From positions 32,883-96,882 of the forward strand of contig SUYV01000002.1 of the NCBI GenBank assembly GCA_015060255.1: DNA of 64,000 nt, given 5' to 3'. Of this stretch, positions 7,233 through 32,841 are shown one piece after another. A program made the position numbers and the translations under genes. Within the stretch, counting starts at the first letter, position 1. Every line of letters begins with the position of its first letter. The notes under the pieces are model-generated. The model saw only the letters and a list, made by a program, of their open reading frames with translations, was not told where the DNA came from and did no database searches. The stretch comes from Bacteroidales bacterium. GTDB lineage: Bacteria > Bacteroidota > Bacteroidia > Bacteroidales > UBA932.

Positions 7233-7260
7233 GATTTCTCCACTACGGTCGAAATGACAG
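7233..7260 (-). repeat. Dispersed palindromic repeat (TGTCATTTCGACCGTAGTGGAGAAATC type)
   Basis: On + strand GATTTCTCCACTACGGTCGAAATGACAG; related to the copy in lpdA. Confidence 0.7.
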
Positions 7261-28563: not shown

Positions 28564-29910
28564 ATGGCATTCGCATATTTTCCACATACGGAAGATGATG
28601 TGCGCCAGATGCTGGACAGAATCGGAGTGGAGTCCCTTGAGGATCTCTACTCCGATGTCCCTCAGGATGTCATCTACCGTGAAGAGTACGACCTTCCGGA
28701 CGCAATGTCCGAGCTTGAGGTCCGTCAGTATTTCGAAGAGCTTGCAGAGCAGAACACAAACCTGTTCTGCCTTTGCGGTCTTGGAGCATATGACCATTAT
28801 TCTCCAGCCGTGATCCCTCATATCATTTCCCGTTCGGAATATCTTACAGCATACACTCCATATCAGCCGGAAGTATCCCAGGGTACACTCCGCTATATTT
28901 TCGAGTATCAGTCTATGATAACCGAACTGACCGGAATGGACTGCACCAACGCGTCCATGTATGACGGCGCGACAGCAGCAGCAGAGGCTGTGATGATGTC
29001 AATGGCGGCAACGAAGAAGAAGACACGTGTCCTTCTGTCTGAAGGCCTCCTTCCGCAGGTCGTTAAAGTGGTCAGGACGTACGCAAAGTATAACGGAATA
29101 GAGTTGGGATTAATCCCTTGCCATGAGGGTGCCACTTCATATGGTGCACTTCTTACCGAGCTTGCTGCCGGTGATGTGGCGGGAGTCCTTGTTCCGGGCA
29201 TCAACAAATATGGTGTGATAGAAGACCTGACAGGCTTTGCCGATGCTGTTCATGCGCAGAAGGGTCTGCTGATGGTGTATTCCGACCCATCATCGCTTGC
29301 TGTGATCAAGACTCCGGGCGAGTGGGGGGCTGACATTGTCTGCGGAGATTCTCAGAGTCTTGGCGTGCCTCTTTGCTATGGAGGTCCATATGTCGGTTTC
29401 CTTGCATGTACCAAGGACCATGTCCGCAAGCTTCCTGGAAGAATTGTGGGAGCGACACGCGATGTTGATGGAAAGCGTGCCTATGTCCTTACGCTTCAGG
29501 CCCGCGAGCAGCATATCCGCCGCGAAAAGGCGACCAGCAACATCTGCTCAAACCAGTCTCTGATGGCTCTTTATGTGACAGTATATATGTCTCTCATGGG
29601 TCCGCGCGGTCTTCGTGAGGTGAATGACCTCTGCTATGGCGGAGCACACTATCTGCACGACCGTCTCCTTGAGACCGGCCTCTTTGAGAAGGCTTTTGAC
29701 AAGCCTTTCCTCAAGGAGTTCACTCTCAAGTCTCTTGTCCCAGTGGAACTGCTGCAGGACAGACTTCAGATGTGCGGTGTATTCGGAGCAGTCGAGGTTG
29801 AACCTGGCCTTGTGAATTTCTGCGTTACCGAGAAGGTGTCAAAGGACAATCTTGATGCGGTATTATGTATAATCAAAAGTCTTTCAAGTGAGGAGGAGGC
29901 ACATGCATGA
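28564..29910 (+). CDS. gcvPA: Glycine dehydrogenase (aminomethyl-transferring) subunit 1
   Basis: [17 protein letters not shown] start within ORF 28516; N-terminal GcvP half. Confidence 0.95.
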
Positions 29911-31439
29911 AGTACTACGATAAACTGATCTTTGATCTTTCCAAGGAAGGAAGACAGGGATACTCTTTGCCGGTCAACAAATGGGAGACATCTGCTTCTG
30001 ATCTTCCTGCAGGCCTTCAGCGTGCGGCAGTACCGGCGCTTCCTCAGGTGAGCGAACTTGATGTCGTACGCCATTATACCAATCTGTCACAGATGAACTT
30101 CGGTGTGGATTCAGGATTCTATCCTCTTGGAAGCTGCACCATGAAATACAATCCGAAGATAAACGAAGAGATCGCGGCAATGCCGGCCTTCGCTGGTCTG
30201 CATCCGCTCCAGCCGGCTCAGACAGTCCAGGGAGCCCTCCGTTTATACAAGGATCTTTCGCATGCTTTGTCGGCAATAACCGGAATGGCAGAGTTCACCC
30301 TCGATCCGTTCGCGGGAGCGCACGGCGAGCTCACAGGCCTCATGATAATCCGCAAATATCATATGTCTCGTGGCGACATGAAGCGTACCCGCATCATTGT
30401 CCCTGACAGCGCCCATGGTACAAATCCGGCATCAGCAGCCGTGTGCGGTCTGGAGATAGTCCAGGTGAAGTCAAATGCAGCGGGACTTGTTGATGTTGAG
30501 GATCTTAAGCCGCTTCTTGACGATACGATTGCAGGTATCATGATGACAAATCCGAATACCTTAGGTCTGTTCGAGAAGGATATAAAGGAGATTGCTGCGC
30601 TTGTTCATGAATGCGGAGGTCTGCTCTATTATGATGGAGCGAATATGAATCCTCTCATGGGTGTAGTCCGTCCGGGAGACATGGGATTTGATGTGATGCA
30701 CCTCAATCTGCATAAGACGTTCTCCACACCTCACGGAGGTGGTGGCCCTGGAGCGGGCCCTGTAGGCGTTGCAGCCCATCTTGCATCTCATCTTCCTGTT
30801 CCGAAGGTCATGGAAGCGGAAGATGGAACTCTGTATATTGCAGATGGAACATGTCAGTGTCCGGCTTCTCCTGACGGAGCAGGTGTCTTTGGTGAGGAAT
30901 GCGGATGCTCTCCTGAATGCATGTGCGGATGCCAGGCCTGTGGACAGATATCGGGATTCATGGGCAATTTCGGTGTCCTTCTGAGAGCGTATACATATAT
31001 CCTGATGCTCGGAAAGCAGAACATCAGGATGGTGGGACCACTCGCCGTTCTTGGCGCCAACTACATCAAGGAGTCTCTCAAAGATTGCTTCAAACTTCCG
31101 ATCCCTACAGTCTGCAAGCATGAATTCGTCTTCGACGGTCTTCTGGACCAGTCTACCGGCGTAACGACTCTGGACATCGCCAAGAGACTGCTTGACTATG
31201 GTTTCCATGCTCCTACAATCTATTTCCCTCTGCTGTTCCATCAGTCGATAATGATCGAGCCGACAGAGACAGAGTCGAAGGAGACATTGGACGGATTCAT
31301 CGAGATTATGAAGCATATCGCGGCAGAGGCTTTGGCAGATCCGGAATCATTGAAGACGGCGCCTCATACAACTCCGGTGCGTCGTCTTGATGAGACAACA
31401 GCTGCCCGCCAGCCGGTGCTCAGATATAAAGACATGTAA
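29907..31439 (+). CDS. gcvPB: Glycine dehydrogenase (aminomethyl-transferring) subunit 2
   Basis: [45 protein letters not shown] (PLP Lys); contains Cys-rich insert. Confidence 0.96.
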
Positions 31440-31440
31440 T

Positions 31441-32841
31441 ATGAAGATCATCATCATAGGTGCAGGGCCGGGCGGTTATGAAACCGCCCTCCTTGCTGCA
31501 AAAAGGGGAGTGGAAGTTGTCCTTGTCGAGGCCGGACATGTCGGAGGAACATGTCTCAATGAAGGCTGCATCCCGACCAAGTCTTTCTGCAGGAATGCTG
31601 AAGTGCTGGACGAACTGCGCGATGCAGAGGCTTTCGGTGTGACCGGACTGTCATATGACTTTGACTTCAAGGCTGTCGCGGCACGCAAGAATGCTGTAGT
31701 AGAACAACTCCGTGGGGGAGTCGAGGGCTTGCTCGCCCACAAACTGATCACCTTGGTCAGGGGAAAGGCTTCGTTCAAAGACCAGCATACCATCTCTGTC
31801 ATTCCGAGCGATCCTTCTGTCATTTCGAGCGAGGCCGAAGGCCGAGTCGAGAAATCCCTCGAATACACCGCCGATTACATAATCATAGCGACAGGTTCTG
31901 TATCTGCTTCCCTGCCGATACCCGGAGCAGACCTTCCAGGCATTCTCACTTCCAAGGAAATCCTTGATCTTGAGGAAGTTCCGTCAAGGCTTTGTGTAAT
32001 AGGAGGCGGTGTCATAGGACTTGAGTTCGCTTCAGTCTTCCGCAGCTTCGGCAGCGAGGTGACCGTGCTTGAATACTTCAAGGACATCCTTCCTCGTTTC
32101 GACTCGGACCTGTCGAAAAGACTCAAGCAGAGTCTGGGAAAACGTGGGATAGAGATCAATACCCAGGCCCAGGTGACAGGAATATCTATTGATGACTCCT
32201 CAGTATACAAGGTCTCATACACCCGCAAAGGCAAGGAGGAAACCGTCGAGGCTGACAAGGTCCTGATGGCAGTGGGAAGGAAGGCAAATGTTGACTCGCT
32301 GAATCTCGCTGATGCCGGCATTGAATTCACGCCAAGAGGGATTGTTGTCGATGACAGGACCATGCAGACCAATGTTCCGCACATCTATGCAATCGGCGAC
32401 ATCAACGGCAAGATGATGCTTGCTCATGCTGCAACTTTCCAGGGAATCGTCGCTCTTGACCATATAATGGGCATTGAGAACAATATCGACCTTTCTGTGA
32501 TGCCAGCAGCAGTGTTTACGACTCCTGAGGCTGCTTCCGTCGGCATGACCGAAGATGAATGCAAGGAGGCGGGAAGGTCTGTAAAATGCCTGAAATCCTT
32601 CTTCCGTGCAAACGGTAAGGCGGTGACCATGGCTCAGACTGACGGCTTCTGCAAGCTGGTAGTTGACGCAGAAACAGGTGAAATCCTTGGATGTCATCTC
32701 TTCGGTCCACACGCTTCAGACATAGTTCAGGAAGTGTGCGCGCTGATTTCACGCAAGGCTACTATAGAACAGTTCAAAGATATTATTCACACGCATCCGA
32801 CATTGACGGAAGTGCTTCAGAGTGCGGCACATAATGGGTAA
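31441..32841 (+). CDS. lpdA: Dihydrolipoyl dehydrogenase
   Basis: GAGPGGYETALLAAKRG, GGTCLNEGCIPTKS redox motif; start MKIIIIGAGPGG inside ORF 31387. Confidence 0.96.
   Translation: MKIIIIGAGPGGYETALLAAKRGVEVVLVEAGHVGGTCLNEGCIPTKSFCRNAEVLDELRDAEAFGVTGLSYDFDFKAVAARKNAVVEQLRGGVEGLLAHKLITLVRGKASFKDQHTISVIPSDPSVISSEAEGRVEKSLEYTADYIIIATGSVSASLPIPGADLPGILTSKEILDLEEVPSRLCVIGGGVIGLEFASVFRSFGSEVTVLEYFKDILPRFDSDLSKRLKQSLGKRGIEINTQAQVTGISIDDSSVYKVSYTRKGKEETVEADKVLMAVGRKANVDSLNLADAGIEFTPRGIVVDDRTMQTNVPHIYAIGDINGKMMLAHAATFQGIVALDHIMGIENNIDLSVMPAAVFTTPEAASVGMTEDECKEAGRSVKCLKSFFRANGKAVTMAQTDGFCKLVVDAETGEILGCHLFGPHASDIVQEVCALISRKATIEQFKDIIHTHPTLTEVLQSAAHNG
31797..31861 (+). repeat. Dispersed palindromic repeat in frame within lpdA
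   Basis: TGTCATTCCGAGCGATCCTTCTGTCATTTCGAGCGAGGCCGAAGGCCGAGTCGAGAAATCCCTCGA; encodes VIPSDPSVISSEAEGRVEKSLE. Confidence 0.75.

Follow-up and report, generated by a model that had tools for sequence, protein, structure and literature searches.

A TGTC-tagged hairpin repeat in frame in a Bacteroidales dihydrolipoyl dehydrogenase and a GIY-YIG nuclease as its candidate mobiliser

Results

The insert in lpd. The 64,000-nucleotide stretch of Bacteroidales DNA analysed here (the window) carries on its forward strand the gene lpd for dihydrolipoyl dehydrogenase (LPD, E3) at 31441..32841 (466 aa plus stop; coding part 31441-32838), a clear E3 with Pyr_redox_2 and Pyr_redox_dim domains, directly preceded on its 5' side by gcvPB (29907-31439). 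A first reading of the sequence alone had proposed that a dispersed repeat is inserted in frame in this gene, and the repeat is indeed present at 31797-31856 within the 466-aa reading frame, where 60 nt encode the peptide VIPSDPSVISSEAEGRVEKS. The insert, on the plus strand throughout, begins with 21 nt (31797..31817, TGTCATTCCGAGCGATCCTTC) made up of a truncated 5' half-unit, TGTCATTCCGAGCGA, and the 6-nt spacer TCCTTC, an arrangement shared with other arrays, and continues with a complete 39-nt TGTC-tagged hairpin repeat (31818..31856, TGTCATTTCGAGCGAGGCCGAAGGCCGAGTCGAGAAATC); both half-units are exact repeat matches. In the complete copy an unpaired TGTC tag (31818..31821), invariant in 50 aligned copies that were, however, collected by means of this tag, precedes the 5' stem arm ATTTC (31822..31826), which pairs with the 3' arm GAAAT (31851..31855), both arms being backed by covariation. 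The same insert is found in two other metagenome-assembled genomes (MAGs; L066 and L067), whose LPDs are 97-98% identical to that of the window. The only other window copy, near 7245 (TGTCATTTCGACCGTAGTGGAGAAATC, 7233..7259, minus strand), is intergenic, precedes a start codon and is the same in two relatives.

Copies across the genome. That the repeat is dispersed was borne out by a search for the half-unit pattern TGTCATTTCGAGCGA with up to 2 mismatches, which found 66 places in the 2.05-Mb MAG versus 3 for a reversed control. Eight of the 66 lie on a single contig (C37) that shares a stretch of 3,039 nt, 100% identical, with a contig in the MAG of another species (G000 contig C37 4338-7376, L005, and G200 contig C6, L442), which suggests that one contig was binned twice, and these eight copies may be mis-binned; the contig of the window is uninvolved. 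Copies lie in frame in eight genes including lpd, the seven others encoding chorismate synthase (aroC), an ArsP_2 permease, an M3 peptidase, methionyl-tRNA synthetase (metRS), MurB, a HutI-like amidohydrolase and an outer-membrane barrel protein. The identities of these host genes were confirmed with Pfam, and the encoded peptides differ among the seven other proteins. A second repeat family, TGTCATTGCGAGGAGCGTAGCGACGTGGCAATC, with the peptide CHCEERSDVAI, also occurs in frame in metRS and murB (L168), and in a relative murB has acquired an additional 5' half-unit on the upstream side.

Among 49 complete copies or array units of the window's own genome, an ORF of 70 aa or more has its start codon within 60 nt downstream in the sense orientation in 36/49, in the antisense orientation in 13/49 and in both in 7. 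Most intergenic copies are sense-oriented between a stop and the next start (for example L009, L014, L160, L165, L169 and L178); at the L165 site, the stop and start codons overlap (TAATG) in relatives that lack the repeat. Comparison with the close relatives G198 and G199 revealed empty sites, copy-number changes (at aroC, L026, L160, L164 and L170) and, in L025, L032 and L180, a different repeat type at the same place. In the L180 case, compared with L343 (G198), a single intergenic site holds TGTC-type repeats in one species and CGTCATCCCCGGCTTGACCGGGGATC-type repeats in the other. No target-site duplication was evident in pairs of empty and filled sites, and the 39-mer had no match in plasmids or phages.

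Hairpin structure. The inner arm bases are complementary in 157 of 161 copies (73/73, 70/74 and 14/14) that were gathered without demanding such complementarity. From 50 distinct 35-nt copies the structure reads TGTC, 5 bp, GA/GA, 2 bp, GA/GA, 2 bp and a triloop, with one bulge; under it 98.2% of cells are paired, 62 double changes occur, and the covariation score is 0.42 versus 0.12 for shuffles and at most 0.07 for slid versions. The first two stem pairs (AT) are constant in the 50 sequences, the letters AT and ATC being part of the collecting pattern. Nearest-neighbour folding gave the shorter forms no unusual stability and favoured another pairing register; covariation, and not thermodynamics, supports the GA/GA register.

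The LPD loop in relatives. The sequence-only reading placed the insertion where LPDs normally have a short turn. Homologues bear out an insertion: the nearest PDB chain lacks about 13 of the residues found in the window LPD, and alignment of relatives, mostly herbivore-gut Bacteroidales MAGs, reveals a 10-residue loop (for example HTVIV-GEEEYSADYIIIATGS) in L072, L074, L076, L077, L079, L090 and others versus 27 residues in the window. The loop is hypervariable in general: some relatives have 25-47 residues and no recognisable repeat, and loop length alone is therefore no proof of a repeat. In L374, L383 and L392, repeat-free loops of 33-47 residues occupy the same place and are either old decayed repeats or other expansions. 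An AlphaFold2 model of the window LPD (mean pLDDT 91) places the insert in a disordered surface loop between two strands (117-121 and 140-143), residues 125-136 being the sole stretch below 50.

Repeat-filled loops occur in the window and in L066, L067, L068, L069, L070, L071, L347, L349, L351, L353 and L357, with five stem types (ATTTC/GAAAT, ATTCC/GGAAT, ATCCC/GGGAT, ATGTC/GACAT and ATTGC/GCAAT). An LPD tree requires at least 10 state changes (5 in presence and 7 among repeat-bearing rows), with the qualification that sparsely filled columns, and with them most of the loop, were removed, that several nodes are weak and that three decayed copies were typed by eye. Many non-ATTGC copies begin at the same LPD codon, pointing to an old insertion with subsequent remodelling; the two ATTGC copies lie in another frame and look independent. 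The window combines an ATTCC-type half-unit with an ATTTC-type complete copy. In L068 the same long loop holds the complete repeat in its ATTCC form, so that the two arms seem to have changed in concert at this site. That the site is empty in some relatives and filled with five covarying stem types in others points to a loop that has been colonised and remodelled repeatedly.

We also considered that the extra residues are kept as a useful feature of LPD, given that the insert stays in frame in three closely related MAGs. We reject this explanation as very improbable, the least likely of all those ranked: close relatives have an empty loop or one with unrelated sequence, the repeat encodes other peptides in the seven other proteins, and the LPD insert is predicted to be disordered.

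Polarity of the half-units. The tandem half-unit in lpd, taken in the first reading as a sign that the element inserted or duplicated there, proved to be an instance of a general and strictly polar pattern. A 5' half lies within 70 nt upstream of 47 of the 151 complete copies with distinct flanks, a set that includes some orthologues from different species; 5' halves downstream, and 3' halves in either position, are absent throughout. Every array that ends in a complete copy reads half...half-complete, with periods that vary by locus. The spacers resemble the upstream flank of the array (4.4 of 8 positions match versus 2.6 in shuffled sequences, with 0/20,000 shuffles as high), although part of this likeness may stem from degenerate earlier units counted as flank. 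Because the spacers resemble the upstream flank and the halves lie upstream only, flank and 5' half seem to have undergone a local, one-sided duplication. A difference in hairpin stability between the strands was rejected as a cause of the polarity, since the DNA folding energies differ too little. The same upstream pattern was seen in 3 of 21 hairpins of other CGTC/TGTC types. At G200 C26 85200-86500 (L443), about ten full-length tandem copies with a 52-bp period lie beside a GIY-YIG gene, an array unlike the half-unit arrays elsewhere.

The polarity bears on an explanation without any dedicated enzyme, by which the repeats would spread and be remodelled through replication slippage, hairpin template switching and short-homology ectopic conversion. 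Template switching is known to homogenise the arms of inverted repeats (PMC8604942, PMC8794818), and the empty LPD and outer-membrane protein sites themselves look like repeat ends (GTCATT...GAGGAAT; GACAAATC). Slippage at a near-symmetrical hairpin should, however, also give duplicates of the 3' half, and none was seen.

A GIY-YIG gene between inverted hairpins. A dense repeat array in G200 contains, between repeats, a small GIY-YIG gene (PF01541, E=1.1e-19), whose product of ~95 aa has no further Pfam module. All seven Bacteroidales GIY-YIG genes detected in the loci examined are framed by two inverted hairpins with the tag outward, the reading frame opening shortly after the left hairpin and closing at the right one or close to it. 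For other taxa, a tblastn search of plasmid records with the nuclease returned 34 records, from which 16 loci, not all of them independent (several are from Rhizobiaceae), were examined. Under a strict automatic rule, which asked for inverted, tag-out hairpins no more than 130 nt away on each side, 7 of the 16 were framed (two Shinella, Neorhizobium, Rhizobium CIAT894, Aeromonas, A. lipoferum and Sphingobium). Inspection by eye showed slightly degenerate inverted pairs in S. meliloti and Novosphingobium; in Planktothrix and N. gonorrhoeae there are clusters on both sides of the gene, those of N. gonorrhoeae forming no neat inverted pair; the frames of Sinorhizobium K101 and Spirosoma are partial; and in Photobacterium and R. 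tumorigenes the hairpins are farther off and on a single side. The S. paeninsulae locus, a weak hit, had no hairpins. Conversely, none of 133 control genes (annotated genes of four of the same records, not size-matched) was framed and 6 had a hairpin on one side.

ATTTC-framed nucleases are 82-91% identical to the nuclease of L443 and ATTCT-framed ones 65-68%, so that the nuclease clade follows the hairpin type. In L068, L072, L076 and L080 the composite of hairpins and nuclease gene also sits between gcvPB and lpd, a position where the window and other relatives lack it. A scan of viral contigs for the GIY-YIG protein gave nothing. Based on these associations we propose the GIY-YIG nuclease as a candidate mobiliser of the repeat. 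If no dedicated enzyme were involved, the cassette would be a hitch-hiker, and some other cause would be needed for the close framing by inverted hairpins that this conserved nuclease shows in several phyla; we consider this enzyme-free explanation unlikely, though the strongest of the alternatives.

GTAG REPs are thought to be moved by RAYT, and a RAYT or IS200-like Y1 tyrosine transposase could likewise move the present repeat in trans. Y1_Tnp genes are present in 17 of 18 genomes, the repeat-richest genome has the most (7), the genome without Y1_Tnp has no exact copy of the three counted stem patterns, and flavobacterial relatives of the repeat form REPIN-like inverted pairs. Conversely, no family copy was found within 1.5 kb on either side of ~60 Y1_Tnp loci, the few TGTCAT matches being unrelated sequences, and Y1_Tnp genes also occur in genomes without the ATTTC-type repeat. 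As a linked mobiliser RAYT/Y1 is rejected on the absence of linkage at these loci, in line with the published lack of transposase linkage (PMC3733652), and its action in trans we judge somewhat less probable even than spread without a dedicated enzyme. The sequence TGTCATTTCGACCGAAGGGAGAAATC, found in L420, L422 and L424 (same class, genus g35), forms inverted pairs of ~100 bp with a variable centre, resembling REPINs.

Discussion

Our results favour the proposal, to which we assign a probability of roughly 0.6, that the hairpin lodged in lpd, an essential metabolic gene of this gut bacterium, is a TGTC-tagged REP of Bacteroidota that has spread as the non-autonomous ends of a GIY-YIG composite, has grown by local duplication and is tolerated by LPD. 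Under this proposal the hairpin would have entered, in frame, the tip of a tolerant LPD beta-hairpin loop; the insert would have grown by local duplication of the upstream flank and the 5' half, and would be translated into an unstructured, tolerated linker. The composite would consist of two inverted hairpins around the small endonuclease gene, whose putative product would recognise the hairpin and nick it on the tag side, and repair of the break would copy hairpins to new sites and duplicate flank and 5' half, while correction by template switching, or substitution by other copies, would keep the arms complementary. A broader proposal, for which we see about even odds, is that a new kind of minimal mobile element gave rise to the CGTC/TGTC REPs of bacteria at large, dRS3 and RPE-4/6 included, as its non-autonomous descendants; in this element a stand-alone, tag-side-nicking GIY-YIG nuclease, as a substitute for a transposase, would lie between two inverted hairpins.

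A nuclease gene framed by the repeats, with a hairpin type that matches its clade, turns the question of what moves these repeats into one that can be tested at the bench. The framing of a GIY-YIG gene by CGTC-type REPs appears to be new, no work linking GIY-YIG genes with REPs having been found in a search of open-access journal papers. The strict polarity of the tandem copies likewise appears to be new, and gives a hint of the initiating break behind half-unit duplication. The LPD loop constitutes a natural allele series, from empty to 41 residues, in a central and easily assayed enzyme, with which the cost of selfish DNA carried in frame can be measured. Lastly, annotators should be warned that peptides such as VISSEVEKS, CHFERSREI, DFSTSLEMT and CHCEERSDVAI result from translation of repeats.

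CGTC REPs are spread over many phyla, with hundreds of copies in some genomes, and to our knowledge no enzyme has yet been tied to them. By its sequence features the present repeat is a member or close kin of this superfamily, which has been reported from Bacteroidetes and includes dRS3 of Neisseria as well as RPE-4 (CGTC-4) and RPE-6 (CGTC-1) of Rickettsia, and whose repeats were reported without linked transposase genes (PMC3733652). The resemblance extends to the unpaired CGTC/TGTC/CCTC tag (here TGTC ahead of the paired arm), to a stem that opens with complementary AT, and to small, dispersed copies that also lie within genes (eight here) and have no linked Y1 transposase. In contrast, CGTC REPs have a stem of 8-9 bp and a loop of 4-5 nt, a CCA tail and head-to-head dimers, whereas the present repeat has 5 bp followed by GA/GA and more pairs, a bulge and a 3-nt loop, ends in C, usually then T, and occurs mostly as single copies and polar half-unit arrays. 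The analogy with Rickettsia drawn in the sequence-only reading was apt, RPE-4 and RPE-6 being filed in the CGTC-tagged superfamily (PMC3733652), which the repeat matches in most, not all, features: both are palindromic repeats in frame in many unrelated proteins, but they differ in phylum and, as compared by description, in stem and loop sequences. With GTAG REPs, RAYTs and REPINs the family shares short tagged palindromes and a nuclease-type gene flanked by its own repeats, but has a TGTC tag and a framed GIY-YIG nuclease in place of the GTAG tag and linked Y1. Lastly, homing endonucleases of the I-TevI type likewise carry a PF01541 GIY-YIG domain in a compact, selfish-looking cassette; the protein described here differs from them in its length of ~95 aa, in lacking any other Pfam module and in being framed by inverted hairpins that are also abundant alone.
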